Assembly (NCBI RefSeq): GCF_965363235.1
Contig: NC_134844.1
Coordinates: 22,302,646 to 22,366,645 of the forward strand
Direction: 5' to 3'
DNA length: 64,000 bases
DNA from: Mytilus galloprovincialis
Lineage: Eukaryota > Mollusca > Bivalvia > Mytilida > Mytilidae
Both the position numbers and the translations under genes were made by a program. Positions within the stretch are counted from its first letter, which is position 1, and each line of letters begins with the position of its first letter. Shown here piece after piece: positions 7,281 to 62,429 of this stretch. The notes beneath the pieces were generated by a model that searched no databases, was not told the origin of the DNA, and saw nothing but the letters and a program-made list of their open reading frames with translations.

Positions 7281-7294
7281 ATGCAACTTTGGCA

Positions 7295-7452
7295 CAACCT
7301 TTTGGAATTTTGGGTCCTCAATGCTCTTCAACTTTGTATTTATTTGGCTTTTTTAACTATTTTGATCTGAGCGTCACTGATGAGTCTTATGTAGACGAAA
7401 CGCGCGTCTGGCGTATAAAATTATAATCCTGGTACTTTTGATAACTATTTAA
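7295..7452 (+). repeat. Hammerhead-bearing short interspersed repeat, copy 1
   Basis: About 160 bases matching the copies at 16045-16215 (+) and 38525-38690 (-): a 'TTTGGAATTTTGGGTCCTC' segment, 'ATGCTCTTCAACTT', 'TATTTGGC', then the ribozyme core, then 'TATAATCCTGGTAC'. No protein is encoded. The unit resembles a small non-autonomous retroelement. Hammerheads of this minimal kind are known from small bivalve retroelements (established knowledge); the classification here is inference. Confidence 0.75.
7371..7414 (+). ncRNA. Hammerhead ribozyme, minimal type I, core intact
   Basis: Every core element is present in order. Stem I 5' strand GCGTCA (7371-7376). CTGATGA box (7377-7383). Stem II GTCT/AGAC closing a 5-base loop (7384-7396). 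GAAA (7397-7400). Stem III of two pairs, A7400-T7407 and C7401-G7406, around the loop GCGC. Cleavage triplet GTC, with the cut predicted after C7408. Stem I 3' strand TGGCGT (7409-7414) pairs over six positions with two G-U wobbles. Very short stem III is typical of retroelement hammerheads, which may act better as dimers. Self-cleavage is predicted from sequence, not shown. Confidence 0.85.
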
Positions 7453-9192: not shown

Positions 9193-12016
9193 TTATATTG
9201 ATTATGAATTATTCACTTGCAAGTGGATATTTCGATCTCATTGAATCTGTATTCATGTGAACTTCAACTTAACCCCTTACCTAGAGATGGATAACGCATG
9301 CATTGTGCGTGGAAAGTTATTTAAAGAAAAAGAATGTCAACATTGAAAGTGAGATAAAGGTAAATCATTTGATTAACTGATTCGATCCACAAAAAAATCA
9401 TTCTTTTACAGTTAAAAACGATGATAAACATATATTTTTAATGTATAATATGAAATCAAACAGACTGAGAAAAAACCAATAGCACGAGTTCGCTTAATCT
9501 ATTTATATCTATATTTATGTTTACATCGCTTATATGGTAAAGAAATGACTTCAGAGGTCAACTCGATAGTTAATTAGATGGCGACTAGACTCAAATACGC
9601 ACGAATTAAAGCTACATATTATTGAGCCTATGTGCACTGTAAATTGTTTATTTGAGACTTTTAATAGTTTGGATAAATGTTTTACATTGATATAAATCAA
9701 ATATGAGAATTTGAGTTAAATCGGTGAACGTAAATTTGACAGCTAAGCTAGTGCCCCTTTTATAAACATTGGACTATATGTTCTTAATTGACAGAAAAAT
9801 TGTTGCTGTGCAGTTTCTTCAAAGTTTGTTTTTCGACTAATGAATCTGAATCTTTCCTTTACAAATCTCAAGACTTACATTCAAACGCGCGCGATCATCG
9901 GAAGGGTAAGTTCAACAGTTAAACACTATGCAACCGTCAAGGCAAGTAGAAATTTGGTGAAAACTCTTTTTTGCCATCGATAAATGAAGGTCGAATCATA
10001 ATTCCCATATTGATTTCATTTGTTACCAAGATATGTTTACCGGTAACCCAAATCGTGATGGATGGCGGCAGTTAAAAACATTTTGAAAGGATACATTTAC
10101 CCTTGCAACTTGTTAAAAATGTTTCAACGATTTGCAATCCGGTTTTTTTTCTGGTGGCAAATTATTCAAAACATATGCACCAGAGTTCATATATATCTTC
10201 TTAAAATTGATACTTGGCTTTAGCTGGTGTAACATTTTTAATGATTAAAAGAACATAACTGACAAGTTTGAAGCATTCAAAAATAATGAAAGTGTCCCTC
10301 TAGCTAGAAGCACTTTGAGCTTGTGTCGCTGTCCTGAATATATGTGGATTTTCAACAATGGGCAGTCTCCATCATTAAAGACTTGAATATAATTCATGAC
10401 TTGATTAACATTTCTATATATCGTGTCTTACTGATCATATTATTTTCAATAGTTTCTCTCTTTATATTTTCGTTGTCCCAAAAGATAAAGGTGAAAGTCG
10501 TATTTAAAGGGTTATAACTCATGACAGAGGGAAATGAGTCCACTATTTTGAGATATATGAAGGTTGTCTTGCTGATTATTAATGCTATTTGAATTTCAAA
10601 TTTCTGTTTATCTGTTGAAGTTTTTCGCGATGATAAGTGAAACGCAAATACATCGGTACGAAGTGTAATGTAATGGAAAACCCTCTAGCGTTAACTCATA
10701 TGTATCTTGTCCTTACTGATTTTGTAGGAATAACTTCATTTATAAATTTCGGCAAAATGACTAGTTTATTGATTATTTTTGTGCGAACTCAAGTTTCTCC
10801 TGTACAAAGTAGTCATACAGTTTGACGTGAATGAACGGTGGGAATATCGCACCTATCTGAATATTTTTTTCCAGTCATATTTTCTGTATTGATAATTTTG
10901 AAACAAGAGGTTAAGAGAAGTATACCCAATTATGTTTACTGTTCAATGGTTATTAACGAACTGTTTTAGTATTGTGTCTGTTCTATATGAACATGGGAAG
11001 GAATCAACAAAAGTAAAATATGTTTGGTAACCTTTAGAAAACATACACATGTAAACATATATTAAATCAATGCATCATACATGCGATCTTCGTATTTACT
11101 TTTAACAACAGATGTACATGTATAGCTGTGCTATAAAGGGAAAAGGCAACAAACGTTCCATACACAGACTTGTAATTGTGACAAACCAAGAAGGTAAAAG
11201 GTATGTCTGTGGGTTTATTTGATTTGTTTACGCAATTTTTTTTTAAAAGAACGAAGTAAACTATTTTGTATTATGTTTTTCTTCTAATTAATTTCTTTCG
11301 ATATTTTTTAAGTTCCTCTCATATTTTGTTTCTATTAACCGTTGACTAAATGACTGTTCTTGTATTTAGTAATAACATGCCTGCATCATCAGACCAAGGG
11401 TTCTAATGACTAAAATGTTCGTGACATATAAAGATTTTTTTTCGTAATTTTTTTTATCATAGACTAAAGTTTATAATTTCTACACCATACACACGTTTTG
11501 TCTACATAAGACTCATGAGGAACACTCAATTCACAAGGTTTTGCCATAAAAAAATGGTAAAAGGTGATTAATTCAAAAAGCGAAGTAGTATTGACAAAAT
11601 ATCCAAGCATAAATAGTCCAAAAGTATCCCGAAATGATTATAAAACCCCATATAGGTAAAAATGTTCCCCTTATCAACTGTGAAGAACTCTTTTCTTTAT
11701 TGTGAAATATTTGACAAATTATAATAGATTGAATCTGCAAAATTATTTTACCAGAACATTTGAACGGCATATGGAAAATGAGGACATGATAATTATAGAT
11801 TGAAAGGTTGCGTTAACTAGTTATCCGTTACCTTTTGATCTTGCCATTTGCTTATGGCCTTTCTGTATAGAAATTTCTTATGAGTTCAGTATTATAATGT
11901 TGTTATTTTAGTTTTTACATAGGCAAAATACGAATCTGTAATTTGTAATGTTTATTTGTATTGTAAAGTTAAACATACCAAAACAAATAACAAAGTGTTA
12001 CTGTTTTTTTCTTTAG
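9193..12016. other. No gene recognised; region upstream of the C4-like exons
   Basis: The missing 5' exons of the C4-like gene (signal peptide and N-terminal region) might lie here, but none is clear. A TATAAAG sequence lies at 11132-11138, with a possible untranslated exon ending AAG/GTAAAA near 11195. This is weak, and I would not build a gene model on it. A decayed hammerhead repeat lies at about 11480-11530 on the minus strand. Confidence 0.4.
11480..11530 (-). repeat. Decayed hammerhead repeat
   Basis: Read on the minus strand, the stem II segment GTCTTATGTAGAC is retained. The box reads CTCATGA instead of CTGATGA, and AAAA replaces GAAA. The 3' flank (ATTATAAACTTTAGTC) still resembles the family. 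This copy should not be catalytic. Confidence 0.6.
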
Positions 12017-16044: not shown

Positions 16045-16215
16045 TATTGGCAAAACTTTTAGGAATTTTTGGTCCTCGATGCTCTTCAACTTCGTACTTT
16101 ATTTGGCCTATTCAACATTTTTTTATTCGAGCGTCACTGATGAGTCTGTTGTAGACGAAACGCGCGTCTGGAGTATATATGAAATTTCAATCCTGGTATC
16201 TATGATAAGTTTATT
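16045..16215 (+). repeat. Hammerhead-bearing short interspersed repeat, copy 2
   Basis: It has the same layout as the repeat at 7295-7452: 'TTTTGGTCCTC', 'ATGCTCTTCAACTT', 'TTATTTGGCC', ribozyme core, then 'TCAATCCTGGTA' and 'GATAAGTTTA'. Confidence 0.75.
16131..16174 (+). ncRNA. Hammerhead ribozyme, core intact, one stem I mismatch
   Basis: CTGATGA lies at 16137-16143, stem II GTCT/AGAC with loop GTTGT at 16144-16156, and GAAA at 16157-16160. Stem III has two pairs around GCGC, and the GTC cleavage triplet ends at 16168. Stem I pairs GCGTCA with TGGAGT; the A at 16172 opposes G and breaks one pair. All catalytic core bases are kept, so activity is plausible but probably weaker than the copy at 7371. 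Confidence 0.75.
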
Positions 16216-16247
16216 TGTAACTGAAATAAAGACAAATTTAATTAAAT

Positions 16248-22935: not shown

Positions 22936-25054
22936 CACGGTGTGAAATGATATTTAACCCATATTTATTATTAAATAACAGTCCTATGCACATTTGTGTG
23001 TATTTAAAAGCTTTTAAAATTACAGTTAACTCGAAAATTGATAATGGTAACACTAACAAAATTAAACGTGCTCCTTATTACTATTTAGTGCAAGAAAACG
23101 TTTGTGAACTGTTTAAGACAGACTGGACTCATCAGCAGCCGAGTGTTAAACGCACCCCTGGAAGAATCGGGTTCCATGTGCTTTATATCTTGTTCCAGAC
23201 ATCAATACTGCTTACTACCAGACACGCAATAGTATTTTTAAATTTAATACCAAGTTGAATAACAACCATCGATATTAATTTGATACTCAATATGTTTCCT
23301 TGAATATAAACATATTCTCTTTCGGTCTGAAAATAAGATATGAAATTGATATACAGAACATTCAGAAATGTGAATGTTACAAAATAAAAATGTAATTATA
23401 TATGAGAAAGGTATTGAACGCAATATTAAAAGATGAGCATGCAGGTAATATACATTGTACATGTTGATCTGTAATGCCCGGAAATGTCAAGGTATATATC
23501 ACTACCTATATAGCTATACAGAATGTACCATGGCAAAGAAATAAAAAAAGGATGACCATTCATGATTTAAGTGGGGTCCTTAATATGGGCTACAAAGTTA
23601 TTAATAGATATAATTGTTATGCCTTTTTTTTTCTTTTTTCTTTCTATTATGTGTGTGGCTCTGATCTGGCTGTGGTTTAACATCTAAGAACTGAGATGGT
23701 TATATTCATATTTATACGCTTACAGCATTGTGCATGGCCTGTTTAAAGTCAATATGTATTGATTTCGGAGAGAAATGCATATGGGGTGACTTTCCACATG
23801 CTGACATTGAAAAGTACTACAATGTCCAATCTGAATAGTATCTACATGTTGAACATGTTGAAGGAATTATATTGTCATAATAAAATACAAATCAAGAAAA
23901 AATACTATACTTAAATAAAGTCTTATATATCATTATTACCTATCCTCCCCTTTTATATGGGCTTGGGACCGACAGGTTTGACCTTAAAGAGTTAAAATCG
24001 TATTTTTCTTTATGAACAAATTTAAAAATCGTTTCATAGAACATTGATATATGTTTAAAAGTTTATATACAGCTAAAAGTTAACATTATAAAGACATAAA
24101 ACAAGTATAGTCATCACAGGTCAGTGTAACTTCATAACTGAAGACAAAGGAGTGAACAAATTTAGCTCTTCAACTTGTTATCTGTTCTGACGGGTATTTC
24201 GCCCACATCTCAAACAAATAATCAAGTTTCTTTTTCTCAATTCTAGACCGGGGTGCCTGTTCATCAATGTCACGAATCTTAATGTAATTCATAAAATTGT
24301 ATGTTCTTAATTAAAGATTGTAAGGTGTCGACTTTTTCTGCTTAATACTTTTGATATGTTCGTTAATAATAATGAAAAAATCTTTGCCATAAGTAATTCC
24401 AAGATTTTATAGTGTATAATTCGCCATAAATACAATTTTTATTGTCATATAATAGCGGTATTTTTAAGAAATTGCCATAGAGCATTGCCATTGATGATTC
24501 ATATTGGCCATTTGGTATATGTTTGTGTTCAAAGCTAAACGTACATGTAGGACAAATTATTGAGCAAGGACTTCTTGGCGTAACAAAAAATATGTTGGTC
24601 CGAGAAACGTGAACACAGAAACCTGATCAACATTGAATTTCTGCTGACCAATGTCCACACTGAGTGAAAGATACATACATTTTATTAACATAAAAAGAAA
24701 ACTTTCAATGTTAACTTAAACGTATAAGGATCATTACTTCAAAAAAAAATTTGAGATTTTTTTTTCAAAATTTGAGAATTTTTTTTTCGAGTTACATTTA
24801 AAAAAAAAATATATCATATCTTACTGTAAAGAGAAAATAAAACACAAAATGCATTTTCTATCTCCATATTTTAAGGGAGAAAAAAAAATTGCAAAATTTA
24901 ACACAGTATATTTTTAGGTTCGTTCGTTCTGGTTTTTAGTGAAACCTTCGTCAATAGATGAATAAAGAACGTTTTAAAAACCTCTAAATGCACAAAAACT
25001 GTAAACAGTTGTGTTAAATTTTCATATATCTGCATGTTATATAATTCCTTATCA

Positions 25055-37124: not shown

Positions 37125-40100
37125 GTAAAAAATAATTTTAACTTAAATCACACTTAAGTTTGATTAGAAGTTTTCTTGTTTCTTTCATGAAAATGTTTTT
37201 AACCAATAATTTGGCTCAATAAACTAGAGAAGCAAGAAAATTATCAGTATTAATAAAGAAGATTGCAAAAAAATAGGTGAAATTGAATTTAAACACTAAT
37301 TACTTATGATAAATGAAAACAGGAACCATAGGCGGATCCTGGGGGGCCTGGGGCCCCCTTTCGTGGGGAAAATTTGGTTGATTATATAGGGAATCATTGA
37401 AGCATGACTGGAGCAGGCGCCCCCCCCTAAGGTCAGTCAGCGGGCCCCCCCTTAGGAAAAGTTCTGGATCCGCCACTGGGAACTTAGTTTGGTCTTATGT
37501 ACTACCCTATATCTTTATGTTATTCTTGTTATCCGTTTTACATGTATGAATAAAATTCCAGATAGTTATATTTGATACCCCACACAAAGAAGGCGTGGAG
37601 GGGTGGTAAAGCTAAGACATCTGACATTTATATCATTGCATTTTCATGCCTTCAGATCTTATTTGGTTTTAAATTCAAGTCAAAGATTTAATTAGCTATA
37701 TTAATGTCTCAGCTGACAAGTCAAAGTTAGGTGAACAGATTGTTTTTTTTTTAGATATGTTAGAGGCAGATATATATGCCTTAGGGAAATGTTTATAATA
37801 TCAAAGTTGAAAACGTTCTCCTACAAACACAAGTTAATAACATTTTTATAAATATCTTAAATGTATTGAATTTGTGTTTGATCAATGACTCCTCTTTAAA
37901 ATTTAAGGCAATATTTTATATTACCCAGTAAAAACCGGCTTTTCCCGGTATTTCTCACTGGGTTGGGCAATACTCATAAAACCCTGGTTTTTGTCAACCC
38001 TACTGGAGAAACTTTATAATTTTCATACTTTATACTTGACATGTTTATTAACCAACACCAAAGTGTGTGTCATCATGTATGTACATTTTCCTAGCTCAAA
38101 GATGAAGGTCAAAAACTTTGGTTTCAGTTGACAACCCCATGTCTTATGGTAAAGATACAAATTTTTGCCACACATTATTCACAGAGATGGCTCCCATCGC
38201 AATGATATCTATTTGTTTTCTGTTCACAGAGCTCCTTATATTAATCTGCAGTTTGTGAATGAATGTTATTTTTATAGATATTGCAAAGTTTCATATATGT
38301 ATATACAAGAATGATAAATAATTTTGAACAGGAATTTGAGTGTTTTACTTTGTCCTTTCAGGGATAAGAGAAGGGAAGGATTGAGAAAAGAAGATTATAT
38401 CATAAAAGATCAGAAAGATGCTACATTAGGCAGAGTTCCTGGTACAGTCAATGGTCAACAGTTTCTTGTTCAAAACTGTGAGGTAAAACTGACATATCTT
38501 TTGAAACGCTTAAAAAAGTTATCAAAGGTACCAGGCTAATAATTTAATACGCCCGACACACGTTTCGTCTTCATAAGACTTATCAGTGATGCTCAAATCA
38601 ATATAGTTAAAAAGCCAAACAAGTATAACCAAAGTTGAAGAGCATTGAGGACCCAGAACACAAAAAATGAATGTATTAATCCTCACTAATCAGAGACTGT
38701 AGCCTTTGATATTTTTGCTTAATGAGACAGTCTGTTGTTTATTTTGTTGTTTCATACATGTATGTAAATGTACTCTAGGGGCCTCGATGCCCGAGTGGTC
38801 TAAGTAGTTACTACTGTTATCACTAGCCAGTCAACACTGAGGTTGTGAGTTCGAACCCCGCTCGTGCAGTTGCACTTGACTCAAATCTTAATTGACTAGG
38901 ATTGTCAGTTTTCCTTTTGAAGGTCAGGGTTTTCTGCGGGCACTCCAGCTTCCTCCACTAATAAAAAACTGGTCGCCACTAAAAAGCCTAAATGTGGTGC
39001 TTAAAAGTGGCGTTAAAACACAAAAAAATCAAAATGTAAGTGTCCTGAAGCTGTTAAATCAAAAACCAATGTAGGAGAATGAAATAGGTTAAGTTGAATT
39101 ATTCCTTATTGTGAAAAGCTTAAGGCAGTATGGTTGCTTATAATTGCTTATAATTGCTTAGATCCACTTCATTTGAACCTTGGTGGATAGTTGTCTCATT
39201 GGCAATCATACAGGATCTCCTTATTTTTATGCCCCATTTATGGGCATTATGTTTTCTTGTCTGTGTGTCTGTTCGTCTGTTCGTTCATTCGTCTGTCCCG
39301 CTTCAGGTCAAAGTTTTGGGTAAGGTACTTTTGGCTGAAGTTGAAGTACAATCAACTTGAAACTTACTACACATGTTCCTTATGATATGATCTTTCTATT
39401 TTTGTTGCCAAATAAGAGTTTTTATCCCTTTTTCACAGTCCACTGAAGAAAGAAAATGATAGTGTGGATGGGGCTTCCGTTTACTTGGGACACATTTGTG
39501 TTTTAACTATAATAATGATGTAGTCCAAATTTCTTAGAATAAAAATTTATAATAGTAAATAGATATAAGAAGATGTGGTATGAGTGCCAATGAGACACCT
39601 TTCCATCCAAGTCACAATTTGTAAAAGAAAACCGTAACAGGCATGCTTTTGTTTAATGTAACAAAAAGTTAACTCCTAACAGTCTGGTTTGGTACAATGG
39701 ATATATCATCACCAATTCCATCCTTTTGTCTATCTTATTCCATATGGATTTTTTAACGACCTTGGCTGGCTATAAAGCCCTGGCATGGTTGTTGTCTATC
39801 TCATTAACTACTTACTTTCCATTTTATAATTTATAGAAATTTACCTGTTAAGATCAATGGCCGTTACTTTAATTAGAGAGATTGTTGAAATGTTTGTTGT
39901 TCATGTCAAACTTTATTGATTCTTTGTTTGTTTCACTATGTCAAAATTAATTCTTAATTACTTAAATGTTGCTTGGATAGGAATTAGAAATCAATGGTTG
40001 CTCTCTTGTGGTAAAGATGAATAATAAATACACCTTGATTATCATTGTTAGATTAACTCTTACACAAAGACTAATACATCAATGATGTTTATATATTGGT

Positions 40101-49100: not shown

Positions 49101-51627
49101 GTTGTATAAACAAAACAAAAACTGTAAGGGTAATTTAAAATTCAACACACTAATCTAAATACAGCTTCGTCTGTCCACCCATTTGACTAAGAAAACACCC
49201 GTAAACCCCCATTTCAATGCAATTTTACCTCAAACGTACTTTCTGTGTCTAAATCCATTCCGAATAGTCCATGTTTACAATGTATGAACTGGTTTATTAA
49301 TAACTTTTAAAAATGAAAGTACAATAGGGTCACGAGTGCACATTTAGTTTCCCTAAATAGGTGTAATACCACCATTGATTTTTCCCTATTAGTCTTTGTT
49401 AAATTGGCACTTTTAAAAAAATCGTACAGTATTTACCTTTATTTCAACCAAAGAAATACTTTGCATGTGTAAAGTTCAATCCTTTCCAGTGATACAGTGA
49501 AAATTTCACACTACATTTCATTGCATATAAGAAAGTAACCACCGCCAAGGGTAGACAACCCAATTTTTACACTGTTATTTACTGGTTACCTGCTTTGGTA
49601 ACTATGTAACCTTAATGTTCCAAAGTATTTTATAAGACCATCAAATAAAAAAAGAATGATGCTTTCAGACACCCAACATACATATTTACGACTCAGAAAA
49701 ATTTAAGTGCATTGAAATGCAGGGTTAATTTTCTACAACTGTCAAATTCAAGGGAATATTTTTTTAGGCCTACTTTCGTATGCAACCGGATGTGACGTAC
49801 CATGATTTGGTGGTATTACACCTCAACTTGAAACTTAGTACAATGTTCCCGATGATATGATCTTTCTAATTTTAATGCCTAATTATATTTTTTACCCATT
49901 TTCACGGTCCATTGAACATGGAAAATGATAGTGCGAGTTGGGCATCCGTGTACTTTGGACACATTCAGTGATTCTTGTTTCACTCTCAGTAGGAAGTTTG
50001 AAGCACAGGCACTTGTCTCAGAATTTTTTTTTGTATATACCTTACTATAACACAAGGTACTTAACTTGCATTTTAGAAAAATGTCAGGTGGTGACGAAGT
50101 TCCGTTATATGCCGCTTTATAGGCTGTCAACCCCACTAAAACTTGTTATATTGTAAATCTAAATTAATTTATTTTTACAATGGTGTATAACATGCCTACA
50201 TTTGTTGTCGTAATCTTCCGTAGCAATCCTACCCAAGTATGTCAATTGTAATAATTTTGCAAACCGCTGAAGAATTGGCAATAAACGTGTCACGTCTCCT
50301 TGTATATCTCGGTTTCCGATTGGTCAATTCTATGGGAAAGTTTCAATGATTCTCAGAGTTATCTGATCTTGTTTCATTCATAAGTAAAGCCAAGAGAGAG
50401 TCTGCATGACATTTACGTCATGGGAAAATTTGTAACTTATTAGACCACAAACAACACTTGTTAGATTTTTTTCACGGTATATTATACATTTTTACTAACT
50501 GTATGATAAGTTCTATTCATGAGAAAACTAACAGTTTTTTCTGAAACAAATTTTATAATAAATCATTTACTGCGAGACGTGTATTGCCAATTTTGGGTAG
50601 GTTGACGAAATAATTACGATTGACATACTTGGGTAGGATTGCTACGGATGATTACAACAACAACAATAGGCGTGTTATACCCCATTGTGAAGATAAATCA
50701 ATTTAGATTCACGGCATAACAAGTTTTAGTGGGGTTGACAGCCGAGACACAGCATTTTTAATGGAATTTTGTCACAGTAATAATGCATATGACATTTTTC
50801 AAAATCGCGAGTTCAGTACCTTGTGTTATATAAAGGTATATAGGGGGAAAAAATTCTGAGACGAGTGCCTTTGGTTTGAAGGTAAAAAACAAATGTGAAA
50901 AAACTTACCCTATGTGAAGGAGAAAGTAAAACACAAGTTGACTTTTTAAGTTAGGTTACTTAGATTAAAAAAAAATCACCAAATAAACCAGACTATAATT
51001 ATCAACTCCAGATGTGTGATATGTCTACAAAAGACTCATCAGTGACACTTAGGTAAAAAAATTTAATGTATCCACCAAGGTCAAAATAATGATTAAGGAA
51101 ATTGAATAGGTCTCTCTGAATCTCCTTTTAAATAGTTTATAGATATGAGAAGATCTGGTATGAGTGTCAATTGACAACTCTCCATCCAAGTCACAATTTA
51201 TAAAAGAAAACCATTATAAGTCGAAGTACGGTCTTCAAAACAGAGCCCTGGCTCACACCGAACAGCAGGCTATTAAGGGCCAAAAATAACTAGTGTAAAA
51301 CCATTCAAATGGGAAACAGTCTAATCTATATAAAAAGCGAGAAACGAGAAACACTTATGAACCACATCAACAAACAACAACTACTGAACATCAGATTCCT
51401 AAACATATAAGATTTATTTTTTATCAGATATTTATATTTTTCTTCCTATAGGTGCTGTGATTGGAATGGAGTATAATGGTGATGACTGTGTAGAGACATG
51501 TAAAACAGAAGCTTTAAATTTCATGAAAGGTTCAGTTGGACTGGTATTCGTTAGTCAAAGTCAATCGGAAGCAGAAAAACAAATTGAAGACTTCTATAAC
51601 TTTGCAGATATGCAGATGGCTGTTTGA
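37060..51627 (+). CDS. RP2, ARL3 GTPase-activating protein, nine exons
   Basis: Exons: 37060-37124 (tentative), 38362-38482, 41056-41147, 42041-42213, 43863-43966, 44430-44558, 45464-45544, 46179-46278, 51452-51627 (TGA). All junctions have AG/GT borders and keep frame. RP2 stimulates GTP hydrolysis by ARL3, releasing lipidated cargo for cilia and photoreceptor outer segments. Exons 2-4 encode the TBCC/C-CAP beta-helix: [58 protein letters not shown] and [12 protein letters not shown]. The arginine finger (human Arg118, in QQFR; codon 42096-42098) and Glu138 (in QPIIE) are both present. [12 protein letters not shown] follows. Exons 6-9 form the NDPK-like C-terminal domain, ending FYNFADMQM as in vertebrates. 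Length and motifs agree with family norms. The 5.2 kb intron 8 carries several transposons. Identity is secure; only the first exon is uncertain. Confidence 0.93.
37328..37478. mobile_element. Small GGATCC-ended MITE, copy 2 (RP2 intron 1)
   Basis: GGCGGATCCTGGGG at the left and GGATCCGCCACTGG at the right are inverted ends. The body has GGGGCCCCC runs and AGGGAATCATTGAAGCATGA, shared with 63213-63363. Confidence 0.7.
37990..38270. repeat. Fragment of a bivalve periodic repeat
   Basis: TTTCAGTTGACAACCCCATG and 'acttgacatgtttattaacc' match units of the array at 57070-57770. It lies in RP2 intron 1. Confidence 0.55.
38525..38690 (-). repeat. Hammerhead-bearing repeat, decayed copy
   Basis: On the minus strand it carries the same flanks as 7295-7452 (GGGTCCTCAATGCTCTTCAA, TTTGGCTTTTTAACTA) and a core with CTGATAA in place of CTGATGA. 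GAAA, stem II and the TC cleavage context remain. The changed base corresponds to the catalytic G8, so activity is unlikely. Confidence 0.7.
38778..39035 (+). repeat. tRNA-derived SINE
   Basis: The head resembles a tRNA: GCCTCGATGCCCGAG, an A-box-like TGGTCTAAGTAG (38796-38807) and a B-box GTTCGAACCCC (38849-38859). A body with GTTTTCTGCGGGCACTCC and AAACTGGTCGCCACTAAAAA follows, ending GTGGCGTTAAAACAC plus an A-rich tail. It lies in RP2 intron 2 in the gene's sense. The long spacing between the boxes suggests a serine- or leucine-type ancestor with a variable arm (inference). Confidence 0.8.
39226..39490 (+). repeat. Bivalve 'ATGCCCC' repeat, copy 1
   Basis: It starts TTTTTATGCCCCATTTATGG, continues through CTGTTCGTCTGTTCGTTC and CCCGCTTCAGGTCAAAGTTT, and ends near ACTTGGGACACATTTGTG. 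The same unit is at 46560-46858 (-) and 47250-47580 plus 49823-49975 (+). Confidence 0.75.
39555..39645 (+). repeat. Dispersed mussel repeat R2, short copy
   Basis: AGAAGATGTGGTATGAGTGC, CCAATGAGACACCTTTCCAT and AAGAAAACCGTAA correspond to the 5' part of R2 at 18890-19090. Confidence 0.65.
41742..41872 (-). repeat. Dispersed mussel repeat R1, 5' fragment
   Basis: It is the reverse complement of 8948-9070: CCTCCGGGTGCGGGAATTTC, AGACCTGTTGGTGACCTTCT, GGGTTGTTGTCTCTTTGACA and ATTCTCAATTTTATG. It lies in RP2 intron 3. Confidence 0.75.
42831..43300 (+). repeat. 160 bp tandem repeats in RP2 intron 4
   Basis: TCTGGACAATAACTTTAGTT (42831), TCTGGACACTAACTTGTGTG (42991) and TCCAGACAAGAACTTGTGTT (43151) start three units exactly 160 bases apart. 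Each continues with a GTGTATGGATCTCTCTGAAA-like segment and a GGGGGCAAAAAAGGGG-like segment. The third unit is partial. Confidence 0.85.
43404..43724 (+). other. Unrecognised open frame in RP2 intron 4
   Basis: The frame from about 43404 to TAA at 43724 reads like protein rather than AT-rich noise: [20 protein letters not shown], then [20 protein letters not shown] and [19 protein letters not shown]. It has no signal peptide or membrane segment. An internal ATG at 43563 is possible. It matches no family I know. It may be a fragment of a mobile element or an intronic retrocopy; coding status is unproven. Confidence 0.3.
46560..46858 (-). repeat. Bivalve 'ATGCCCC' repeat, copy 2
   Basis: Reverse-complement copy running from AATGACCCATCCACACTATC to GATAAATGGGGCATAAAAAT, with CGAACGAACGAAAGAATGAA in between. 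It lies in RP2 intron 8. Confidence 0.75.
47585..48047. repeat. 463 bp terminal copy 1 of the composite element
   Basis: It begins GGTGTAATACCACC and ends GGTGGTATTACACC (inverted tips). It differs from copy 2 (49360-49822) at only a handful of positions, for example CGAGGGTAG versus CAAGGGTAG and TTCCAAAATA versus TTCCAAAGTA. Confidence 0.9.
49360..49822. repeat. 463 bp terminal copy 2 of the composite element
   Basis: Same length and orientation as copy 1, and nearly identical. This indicates a recent duplication or recent insertion of the whole unit. Confidence 0.9.
50004..50873. mobile_element. Foldback transposon, 870 bp, with perfect 8 bp target duplication
   Basis: GTTTGAAG occurs at 49996-50003 and 50874-50881. 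The ends are inverted: left CACAGGCACTTGTCTCAGAA and right, read backwards, CAAAGGCACTCGTCTCAGAA. The inversion extends about 250 bases on each side (for example CCCCACTAAAACTTGTTATA on the left and its complement near 50720). It is related to the element at 25620-28438. It sits beside the tail of the 'ATGCCCC' repeat in RP2 intron 8. The 8 bp duplication suggests hAT. No protein is encoded. Confidence 0.85.
51003..51048 (-). repeat. Decayed hammerhead repeat in RP2 intron 8
   Basis: On the minus strand CTGATGA and the stem II segment GTCTTTTGTAGAC are intact, but GAAA is replaced by ATAT. ATCTGGAGT and the TAATTATAGTCTGG flank are still recognisable. Confidence 0.65.
51136..51345 (+). repeat. 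Dispersed mussel repeat R2
   Basis: It contains AGAAGATCTGGTATGAGTGT, AAGTACGGTCTTCAAAACAG, CCCTGGCTCACACCGAACAG and AGTCTAATCTATATAAAA, in the same order as at 18890-19090. It ends about 110 bases before RP2 exon 9. Confidence 0.75.
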
Positions 51628-54849: not shown

Positions 54850-55795
54850 TAGTGTCGAGCCTGCAACTTTAGTTGCAGAAAGTTCGACATAGGGATAGTT
54901 ATCCGGCAGCGGCGGCTTTAGCTCACTTCTTAAAAGCTTTATATTTTAGAAGGTGGAAGAAGGTGGAAGACATGAATGCTTCAAACTTTGTTTATAGATG
55001 CCTCATGTTATGAAGTTTCTGTCGGTCACATGTCCAATGTCATTGACCTCATTTTCATGGTTCAGTGACTACTTGAAAAAAAAGTTCAAATTTTTTGTTA
55101 TATTAAATTATTATTATAAGTAAGAGGATAACTATATTTGGAATGTGCATACCTTGCAAGATTCTCATGCCCGTCAGACAGTTTTCACTTGACCTTGACC
55201 TCACTTCATGGATCAGTGAACCATGTTAAGTTTTGGTGGTCAAGTTCATAACTCAGATACTATAAGCAATAGGTCTTGTATATTCGGTGTATGGAAGGAC
55301 TGTAAGGTGTACATGTCTAACTTGCAGGTGTCATCTGACCTTGACCCCATTTTCATGGTTCAGTGGTCAAAGTTAAGTTTTTGAGTTTTGGTCTTTTTGT
55401 ACAATTCTATATGCAATAGGTCAACTATGTTTGAGTATGGAAATATTTAATGATCTATATGTCAGTCGCACAAGTTTTATTTGACCTTGACCTCCTTTTC
55501 ACGGTTCATTGCTCAGTGTTAAGTTTTTGTGTTTTGGTCTGTTTTTCTTAATCTATAAGCAATTTGTCAACTATATTTGTTGTATGGAAGAATTGTTAGC
55601 TATTCCTATCTACCTGGCATTGTCCATCTGACCTTGACCTCATTTTCATATGGTTCATTGGTCAATGTTTAGTTTTCTTGGGTAATGTTAAGTTAATGTG
55701 ACAGTTGTAATAAAGCTTTATATTCAGGACTATCAACATAATATCAATAATTAGTAAAGAAGGCGAGACATTTCAGTGTGTGCACTCTTGTATTT
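54850..55795 (+). repeat. Bivalve repeat with roughly 150 bp internal period
   Basis: It starts GTCGAGCCTGCAACTTTAGT, where TGCAACTTTAGTTGCA is a palindrome, and ends near GGCGAGACATTTCAGTGTGT. The phrase GACCTTGACCTCATTTTCAT recurs, in slightly varied form, at about 55040, 55192, 55339, 55482 and 55630, each followed by GGTTCAGTG-like and AGTTTTTG-like words. It is non-coding. Confidence 0.75.
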
Positions 55796-55799
55796 ACTT

Positions 55800-57060
55800 A
55801 TGCCAAAAAACCTGATACAGTGTCAGAACATTTCTACTTACCACTATTATTTAGATTTTGATTGCCATGATTATTTAGGTTTTGATTGCTAATTTATGAT
55901 ATCCCCATTATATGCATAAGGTGATGAGCTATGGATGTAAAAATGCATCACAACATATAGAATTCTCACATGAAGCTTGATATTAAGCTTCAGGTAGATC
56001 TGTTTTGTAGTTCGATTAAAAATGTACTTAAAATTCCTGGGATGAAAGGACAGTAATTAACCATTTTACCCTTCCTTTGGTATAATCACATTTTGTAATT
56101 GTAAGCATTTACAGTGCTGTTATTTATCTGGATTTAAACAAATTGTCCCTTAGATTAGGTCCCTTAGATTAGCCAATTTTATTGATAAAATCTAGAGAAT
56201 CTCCACTTTGACATTTATTTGATTACAATACAGTGAAACGTCAGCAAGCCACAGCTGATCTGTACATCTGATCAGTAGTTTTATCATACATTTTATTTAT
56301 CAATGAACTGGGGCCAAAATAATTAAAAGAAGTACATTCGTTTTTAGGCACTTAATACTTTGTTAAATTGTATTTGTTTATTTTTGGTATTTGTAGTGTT
56401 GATTTCAATGCTTATGTCATCAATGTTCAATGTATATTCATGTCACTGTGAATCCTTATTGTGATGATATTGAAGAAAAATCCATTCATCTGTCACATGT
56501 TCAATTAAACATGTTCCGTCCATCTTTCAGCTCATAGATCTGAAATTTTGTACTACATTTTATTTTATATTTATTTTGTTGTGATTATTTTGTTTTGATT
56601 ATTAATGTCAAATTAGTACTAAAATGGAATACAGTTTAAAATTTTACAGACTCTTTTATCTATTTTACCTCCTCTTGATTTATTATTAATTGTGGGGCAC
56701 CTGTTTATTCCAATAACACAATCACAAACAAAACCATGGTATACAATATTGTATCTTAAAATACTAGAAGTTTACCTACACATTTCATATAACATCCTGG
56801 TTTAATGGAGATGTAAAATACTAAGAGCAATATAACATCACATAACATTGATGCTTTAAGGCTATATGGAGAACATCCAGTTAAAGCAATCTCAACTCTC
56901 TTTCAACATTCATATATGGATGCCTGAACTGTACACTAGATTTCAGAAAACAATGTCAAATGCAGATAAGAAAGACAAGATCTTGCATGATGCAAACAAC
57001 ACATCTGATCAGAAGTTTAATACAGTAATAACAAAGGAAATATTTCACAACGGCTTCAAA
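55800..57060. other. Intergenic, no gene established
   Basis: One 66-codon open frame begins at 56866 (MENIQLKQSQLSFNIHIWMP) and ends at 57066. It is hydrophilic and unrecognised. I see no splice context or conserved motif and give it little weight. Confidence 0.4.
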
Positions 57061-61002: not shown

Positions 61003-62429
61003 ATATCCTCCAATACCACCAAGATTGATTTACAGCCACATAGCTATCTTCCTAGCAGTTGGATTCCTCATGTCAGCAAGAGTGAAAAGAAAAGAATTGT
61101 CCTTGGTTTATGCTGGACAGCTGTTATATTTTGCTTACAATACATATACAAATGAAAATCTACGATATACTGAACCACAAAGGGTAAGACCAAATAAAAT
61201 AATAAACATGTATTTCTTTTAGCATGTTTAGACAAAAAAGCTATAGAAATTTCATTTTAACAGAAAATATTTGTTTATATTGTTTAATTTAAACATACAT
61301 GTATACATATCAGATGTTTAATTCGATGTCACCAGCTTTTATACTGAAAAATCACCACAAAAAATGTTTCACTAATGGTCACCAGCTTTCACACAGAAAA
61401 TCACCACCAAAATTGATTCACTTATAGTCACCTGTGCATTTACACAGATAAATCATGAGGAAAAGGATTCACTCAAAAGTTGCTAGCACTGAATCAGAAA
61501 ACTCATCACCAAAAGTGATTATCTGATAGTCAACAGCATTTCCACAGAAAGTAATCTCCAAGATTGATTCACCCACACATGCTAGCATTGAATGGAAAAA
61601 ATCACCACCAAAAGTGATTTACTAATGCTAATAGTCACCAGCTTATATACAGAAAATTCATCACCAAAATTGATTCACTCAATCTCCAGCTTTTACACAT
61701 AAGAAATCACCACCAAAAGGGATTCACTCATACATCATGTATACAGACACCAACTTTTACACAGAAAAAAAAATCAGCCAAAAGTGATTCATTCACAGTC
61801 GGTAGCCTTAACACAGAAAAATAATCACCAAAAGTGATCGATTCAGTCACTGAATCACATTGTGAAAAATGTTTATTTATCTTTTCATTTTTGCAACAAC
61901 TTAAAAGTTCATACTAGAGACTTAAATGGGTCAATACATTATGTGTTTTTTTTCCTTTTTTTTTCAGATAAGGATGTCAGTAAGATTGGTTGGCTGTGCT
62001 GGTGTATTGGTATTATTCTCCTATTTCCAAGAGCAAGTCAAATCCAGACAACTTAGAAAACTTGGAGAAACATTAGTTGGAATATTTCTAATTGCCTATG
62101 TATATATAATCAATAACACTTATGAAGATAAGCGAGCCTTCCTAATGCACATCCCTGGTGGGGATTGGAGTAGATATTTCATAACTTTAGTTTTAGCTTG
62201 TGGTGCTATAAGCTTCTTCTCAGGATATTTTTTACGTGATGTGTCTATATCATTAGCAATAGTCTTCGCAATACTGACAGTAGCTATAGACTGTGACATT
62301 CAGTATTGGGTGAATAAAAGAGGGATGCTATATTGGAACCAAGTTAGGGTTATTGCAGATGATTTATGTATAATTATTGGATTTTGTTTGTTAATTTCAA
62401 GGGGAGATAACAAAATAAAAATGGATTAA
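61003..62429 (+). CDS. TMEM101, 3' exons (multi-pass membrane protein)
   Basis: Two exons, 61003-61183 and 61968-62429 (TAA), join in phase 0; the first begins with one base of a split codon. Together they encode 214 residues against 257 for human TMEM101, so about 45 N-terminal residues lie in a missing 5' exon. The sequence aligns along its length with the human protein: IPxPxL, R.KR near helix 1, VRM at the exon join, GI.LI...Y......ED..A.L.H.PGG (here GIFLIAYVYIINN then TYEDKRAFLMHIPGGD), FLSGY-like FFSGYFLRD, AIDCDIQYWVNKR and a final WNQ segment. Several hydrophobic helices are evident. TMEM101 is a poorly understood membrane protein reported to activate NF-kB in overexpression screens. 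A minisatellite fills the intron. AATAAA lies at 62723-62728. Confidence 0.88.
61328..61858 (+). repeat. Degenerate minisatellite, about 50 bp units, in the TMEM101 intron
   Basis: Roughly ten variable units follow the pattern AGTCACCAGCTTTTACACAG then AAAATCACCACCAAAAGTGA then TTCACTCAT. It nearly fills the intron between the two exons found. It does not affect either splice site. Confidence 0.85.

Follow-up and report, generated by a model that had tools for sequence, protein, structure and literature searches.

Type I hammerhead ribozymes of Mytilus galloprovincialis have been described in repeats of ~350–390 bp, which are present in thousands of copies and carry two similar ribozyme families (Cervera and de la Peña 2020, PMC7229834). 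These retrozymes self-cleave, form abundant circles in mussel tissue, and are circularised by RtcB in vitro. Circles dominate over linear RNA, which accounted for less than 5% in one set of extracts and up to 10–25% in another. The mussel hammerheads lack loop-loop contacts, and a cloned repeat cleaves slowly, at about 0.1 per minute. Penelope-like or LINE enzymes were proposed to copy the circles, with the Penelope-like enzymes named "a strong candidate", and that paper left the enzyme that moves retrozymes and the form of RNA it uses as a hypothesis. Two other systems are close to these elements. Plant LTR retrozymes (PMC4918200, as presented in PMC7229834) likewise yield ribozyme-processed RNA circles from non-autonomous elements. 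They are described with a type III hammerhead, LTRs, a primer-binding site, and 4-bp duplications, whereas the mussel elements have a type I hammerhead and no LTR was noticed in them. In the Penelope-like elements, a purified lizard protein starts reverse transcription inside its own RNA, downstream of the hammerhead cut and at an AC-rich stem-loop, and it prefers AT-rich DNA, favouring ATT (Frangieh et al. 2024, PMC11167929).

Here, we analysed a 64,000-nucleotide stretch of the M. galloprovincialis genome (the window), in which a 164-bp insertion at positions 7288–7451 of the plus strand carries a hammerhead. Compared by description with the published M. galloprovincialis retrozyme, its family has the same type I hammerhead, the same lack of a protein, the same unit size, thousands of copies, and two similar ribozyme types; the window copy differs in being one truncated piece. 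Judged by unit size and ribozyme type, the element belongs to a class that is already known, and the remark in a preliminary description of this DNA that hammerheads are established in small bivalve retroelements agrees with what has been published for this mussel (PMC7229834). We assign a probability of roughly 0.7 to the reading that 7288–7451 is a 5′-truncated retrocopy of an animal non-LTR retrozyme, produced by reverse transcription from a fixed start on a ribozyme-made circle, most likely by a Penelope-like enzyme.

The hammerhead at 7371–7414

The preliminary description proposed an intact hammerhead within 44 bases, and this proposal holds. Its label "minimal" would refer to the loop-loop contacts that mussel hammerheads are reported to lack (PMC7229834). 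The core and all three stems are present at positions 7371–7414 of the plus strand, with six pairs in stem I (two of them G-U), four in stem II, and a short stem III; cleavage is predicted after position 7408. The Rfam Hammerhead_1 model matches the site over its full length (model positions 1–45) with 33.0 bits in cmscan, corresponding to E-values of 2.4e-4 in the window and 6.6e-7 in the local 181 bases. The curated gathering score of this model is 34 bits, and a default Rfam scan lists nothing at the site because the match lies one bit below the cut-off. The type I hammerhead expected of an animal non-LTR retrozyme is thus found as a full-length match one bit under the threshold. The Infernal search suggested earlier as a check therefore supports the ribozyme through the full-length match and through genomic matches over the cut-off, but the window copy itself scores 33.0 against 34. 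When folded alone, the 44 nucleotides favour another structure (−9.2 versus −5.7 kcal/mol, a difference of 3.5). A loose core pattern finds two sites in the window, where 0.22 would be expected; two or more sites occurred in four of 100 shuffles. The other hammerhead of the window, at 16131–16174 of the plus strand, was found by this loose pattern and scores 28.3 bits, below the Rfam cut-off. A custom hammerhead pattern gave one match across the examined loci and was too strict to be informative.

In the 1.38-Gb host genome, 8,870 occurrences (4,270 + 4,600) of the exact 32-base core were counted, against 0 in the reversed control, so chance is excluded for the hammerhead family. About 5,000 hammerheads were reported in PMC7229834, which used another assembly and another method. 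In a genome-wide Rfam hammerhead search, in which 74 of 224,653 candidates were scored, 29 of the 37 matches listed exceed the cut-off, the best of those listed reaching 42.4 bits. The exact core was found in 0 viral and 0 prokaryote contigs, in a search that may omit near records, and no match was found among solved structures. On the core, stems, and model match taken together, the hammerhead at 7371–7414 is confirmed as real.

Several other features of the window were recorded. A twister-P1 match on the minus strand at 23939–23998 reaches 32.1 bits against a cut-off of 67.2 and contains several non-standard pairs. The segment 59907–60023 is a long, near-perfect inverted repeat with a sub-cut-off microRNA model match on both strands; it looks like a short inverted-repeat transposon. 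On the plus strand, 61926–62429 is an open frame of 167 aa that includes several hydrophobic segments; it probably represents one exon of a gene for a membrane protein, and we take it to resemble TMEM101. No tRNA gene was found in the window, and no tRNA, 5S, or 7SL, the possible sources of the Pol III-type head of a SINE, was among the Rfam matches.

The repeat unit and its pieces in the window

The hammerhead was initially placed in a repeat of roughly 160 bases found several times in the window. Six related pieces do occur in the window, but the unit to which they belong measures about 356 bases. Many matches in the genome search lie 356 bases apart (among 40 scored of 1,784 candidates), and hammerheads are mostly spaced by 354–367 bases or multiples thereof in the arrays L009–L014, L016, and L022. 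The L009 array includes six complete units of 356 bases each that do not differ from one another, and in part of L011 a spacing of 356 bases alternates with one of 367. Head-to-tail retrozyme arrays elsewhere in the genome extend up to ~5.3 kb. Tandem units within the range of about 150–450 bp are therefore present in the family, the window copy itself being a single partial unit. By this spacing, the real unit is ~356 nt long and the ~160-base stretch is a 5′-truncated piece of it. Reading of the whole 356-nt unit indicated that it is too short to encode any enzyme; it cannot hold a frame for a reverse transcriptase with GIY-YIG, and we therefore did not file it as a Penelope-like element.

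We numbered the unit from the first base 3′ of the cleavage site. The copy at 7288–7451 comprises unit positions 236–356 followed by 1–43, is 99% identical to the L009 unit, and lacks positions 44–235 (192 nt). Its 3′ end (7444–7451, plus strand) falls in the 3′-end zone of the family, unit 36–49, where reverse transcription putatively starts. The remaining pieces are more divergent. A related piece of a divergent type at 16047–16208 (plus strand, 84% identical) ends at unit 36, the fragments at 38513–38667 (minus strand, 85%) and 50970–51105 (minus strand, 69%) both end at unit 42, and the fragment at 11454–11536 (minus strand, 76%) ends at unit 36. Five of the six 3′ ends thus lie at unit positions 36–43. 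The sixth piece, at 476–719 of the plus strand (90% identical; unit 343–356 then 1–227), is the sole exception: its 5′ start lies within the hammerhead, and it continues beyond the common 3′ end to position 227. A second retrozyme type, with an altered stretch after the cut, was observed in L070, L076, L081, and window positions 16047–16231; the sequence CCTGGTATCTATGATGAGTTTATTTG is found in L076 and L081.

These pieces also bear on whether the ~160-base stretch could be a self-contained ribozyme retroelement that circulates alone. Six related pieces in the window and the frequency of 106–187-base copies in our genomic sample are what such an element would leave. The 5′ ends nevertheless vary continuously, and longer copies reveal the ~356-nt unit and its arrays, which leaves this explanation with almost no credit. 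As a truncated retrozyme, the window copy cannot release a unit-length RNA or circle, because it has one hammerhead only and 192 nt are missing, and it is probably a dead end.

Insertion ends across the genome

The ends of retrozyme insertions were compared in 76 aligned loci, which represent 69 distinct insertions, 61 of them with both ends visible and an identity of at least 0.80; the eight insertions dropped had an end too close to the locus edge or an identity below 0.80. The loci comprise the best matches (L001–L023), the first 30 exact cores along contig C1 (L024–L053), and the best Rfam scores (L054–L083), so that most owe their inclusion to a high Rfam score or to their likeness to the window copy. 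L002–L008, which lie within the arrays L009, L011, L012, and L014, were left out. A common 3′ end was observed: 56 of the 61 insertions end at unit 36–49, that is, 36–49 nt beyond the cleavage site, and the other five end at positions 29, 33, 34, 162, and 335. Among the near misses, L070 and L081 are members of the second type, whose sequence is different downstream of the cut. In the 56 insertions, the 5′ ends are scattered round the unit, and the lengths range from 72 to 5,284 bases, the longest being nearly 15 units. More than one lap is present in 25 of the 56, and 18 are at least 479 bases long, leaving room for two ribozymes. A 5′ end no more than 5 nt from the cleavage site was seen in only one of the 56, where a uniform spread would give 1.7; there is thus no pile-up where a ribozyme-cut linear RNA template would run out.

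The same end was found in the C1 sample, which is not ranked by similarity although each locus must contain the exact core. Its 30 exact-core loci represent 23 distinct insertions, of which 22 end at unit 36–46; two are imperfect, as the 5′ part of L032 extends as far as the edge of its locus, whereas L053 is composite with an identity of 0.68. Genome-wide counts of exact 22-mers drop stepwise at the common 3′ end, from 17,985 (unit 342–7) and 12,542 (unit 20–41) to 5,158 (unit 32–53) and 5,511 (unit 60–81), with 0 in the reversed controls. We regard these counts as support rather than proof, because divergence influences them as well as ends. A shared 3′ end, a variable 5′ end, and a step in word counts together form the pattern of RNA-mediated insertion, from which we infer that reverse transcription begins at one set point inside the RNA, the template being either a circle or an uncut multimer. 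The earlier suggestion of a protein-free ribozyme retroelement that circulates as RNA circles is thereby retained in part: its class has been published with circles (PMC7229834) and the insertion ends suggest RNA-templated copying, but the ~160-base repeat is not the element.

Units that overlap within an insertion resemble each other more than units of different insertions do in 18 of 23 insertions; the other five fail this comparison, with within-insertion identities of 0.48–0.79. Such homogeneity suits one circle read repeatedly and equally suits local homogenisation or unequal crossing-over. The latter could be part of a DNA-level satellite, spread by crossing-over of this kind and by DNA circles that reinsert, with the hammerhead incidental, an account that the partial alternation of 356- and 367-base spacing in L011 would also fit. 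Random breakage of a satellite would, however, scatter the ends on both sides, yet the 3′ end is shared by 56 of 61 insertions and only the 5′ ends scatter, and we consider this account very improbable. A closer competitor is reverse transcription from the same fixed start on uncut multimeric transcripts in place of circles, since the enzyme would again cross the cleavage site and make arrays, leaving the same footprint. The predominance of circles over linear RNA in mussel tissue (PMC7229834) speaks against it, and a single circle is the simplest source of the identical units of L009, although they could equally stem from a parent array that was itself homogeneous. We judge multimeric templates unlikely, though they deserve more weight than any other competing explanation considered here.

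The flanks of the insertions were compared for target duplications. In 67 flank pairs, the longest shared word averages 5.746; the corresponding value for 20 permutations is 5.553 (range 5.242–5.742), and a shared word of at least 8 nt occurs in six of the 67 pairs. This marginal excess, just over the top permutation, is too small to show target duplication. Matches of at least 4 nt between the two ends are present in 21 of 56 insertions against 10.0 expected, the observed mean being reached in 0 of 200 permutations; they may be microhomology or the trace of a short duplication. When the length and the offset of a duplication were varied over a grid, no value was clearly preferred. Metazoan retrozyme target duplications, "when present", exceed 4 bp (PMC7229834), and because of this wording the absence of long duplications does not exclude a retrozyme. 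Paralogous empty sites for L017, L042, and L062 are near-flush by eye, within about 0–4 bases. The reference for L017 is 73–84% alike on the two sides, and for L042 the automatic alignment leaves a 12-nt junction gap, so that this site is near-flush only if AAAGCTT is read as target sequence. The repeat that supplies the empty site for L042 lies in the window at 55561–55806. A fourth empty site, L035 versus L044, was set aside at 74–76% identity. The insertion flanks are AT-rich, as is the window (31.6% G+C).

These junctions also concern the source of the enzyme. LINE-driven SINEs typically have a fixed 3′ end and variable 5′ truncation, so the end pattern would be equally typical of a LINE that provides the enzyme and recognises the last ~43 nt, which would then correspond to the LINE-like 3′ tails of many SINEs. 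Visual inspection of the 56 junctions listed revealed neither a shared poly-A tail nor a shared simple-repeat tail, long target duplications are not evident, and multi-lap arrays are unlike ordinary SINEs. A LINE partner accordingly seems improbable to us, somewhat more so than the multimeric template.

A candidate enzyme and a proposed route of copying

GIY-YIG matches were obtained for 147 of the 150 scored among 1,001 candidates, with open frames that reach 911 aa. Four translated pieces match GIY-YIG alone in Pfam, one of them, L091, below the cut-off. The label "Penelope-like" is based on the GIY-YIG domain together with a YIDD motif in L084, which we take as a Penelope-like mark. On visual reading, L084 has two inverted copies of a core resembling a hammerhead, in which stem III is all but absent. 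Its hammerhead region gave 44 matches, four of which end 57–71 nt past the cut (positions 203–217). Another 37 break off at the point where the element used as query itself gives way to another repeat, and two break off shortly after it; these matches are uninformative on ends. Matches to this hammerhead region of L084 also repeat at spacings of 1,065 and 1,074 bp, head-to-head, at C9:76618590–76622542 and C11:39633526–39636398, as read from match coordinates alone; they are possibly a second, longer ribozyme-bearing non-autonomous family.

The mussel retrozymes resemble the Penelope-like elements of Frangieh et al. (2024, PMC11167929) in a fixed internal start of reverse transcription downstream of the hammerhead, putative in the mussel, in tandem copies, and in AT-rich targets. 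They differ in having no gene and a fuller stem III, and no sequence likeness was detected between the unit and eight GIY-YIG loci (best E-value 0.14). A Penelope-like enzyme is the best candidate partner; with no sequence in common between the unit and these loci, the partnership is one that we infer. The mussel 3′ end adjoins the sequence ACACCAC, where a predicted stem-loop has its foot. In an alignment of 38 of 46 sequences, two-sided change was observed in seven of 31 pairs of this stem-loop, a count matched by 0 of 500 shuffles. Slid controls gave six pairs and the same eight cells, and the support for the stem-loop is weak because these controls nearly equal it. The RNAalifold fold of the start region differs in part from the predicted stem-loop. 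L053 was rejected as an autonomous parent, as the stretch between its GIY-YIG piece and its hammerheads, judged by eye, is unrelated sequence that includes a long AT run. In the same locus, two retrozyme types are nested in opposite orientations at L053:940–1740, with the GIY-YIG fragment 1.2–1.4 kb away.

Under the favoured retrozyme reading, tandem copies elsewhere would be transcribed and their hammerheads would cut the RNA into ~356-nt monomers, which a host ligase would close into circles. A reverse transcriptase, most likely Penelope-like, would then begin at one internal site about 36–49 nt past the cleavage site, as the insertion ends suggest, and travel round the template anywhere from less than once to almost fifteen times, with no fixed stopping place. 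The far end of the cDNA would be joined with little or no target duplication. At 7288–7451, copying would have stopped after 164 nt, having passed across an unbroken cleavage junction, and the product would be a copy with one intact ribozyme from which no new circle is possible. The sub-cut-off Rfam score, the alternative 44-nt fold, and the passage of 476–719 beyond the start point count against this sequence of events. As a general rule for the family, we tentatively propose rolling-circle, target-primed reverse transcription of circles by Penelope-like enzymes, with entry at the AC-rich foot of a stem-loop ~43 nt past the cut and with array length equal to the number of laps; this proposal is more likely than not to be wrong in one or more of its parts.

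The presence of a ribozyme in a mussel repeat is already explained by earlier work, and the useful part of the present analysis is the anatomy of the insertions, namely their fixed 3′ end and lap lengths. No description of a fixed 3′ end or of a lap distribution in retrozymes was found in the accessible parts of the open-licence literature. Taken together, the fixed start, the unconstrained stop, and the lap counts would constitute a genomic footprint of retrozyme copying, for which a single purified enzyme and a single circular RNA would suffice as a test system.
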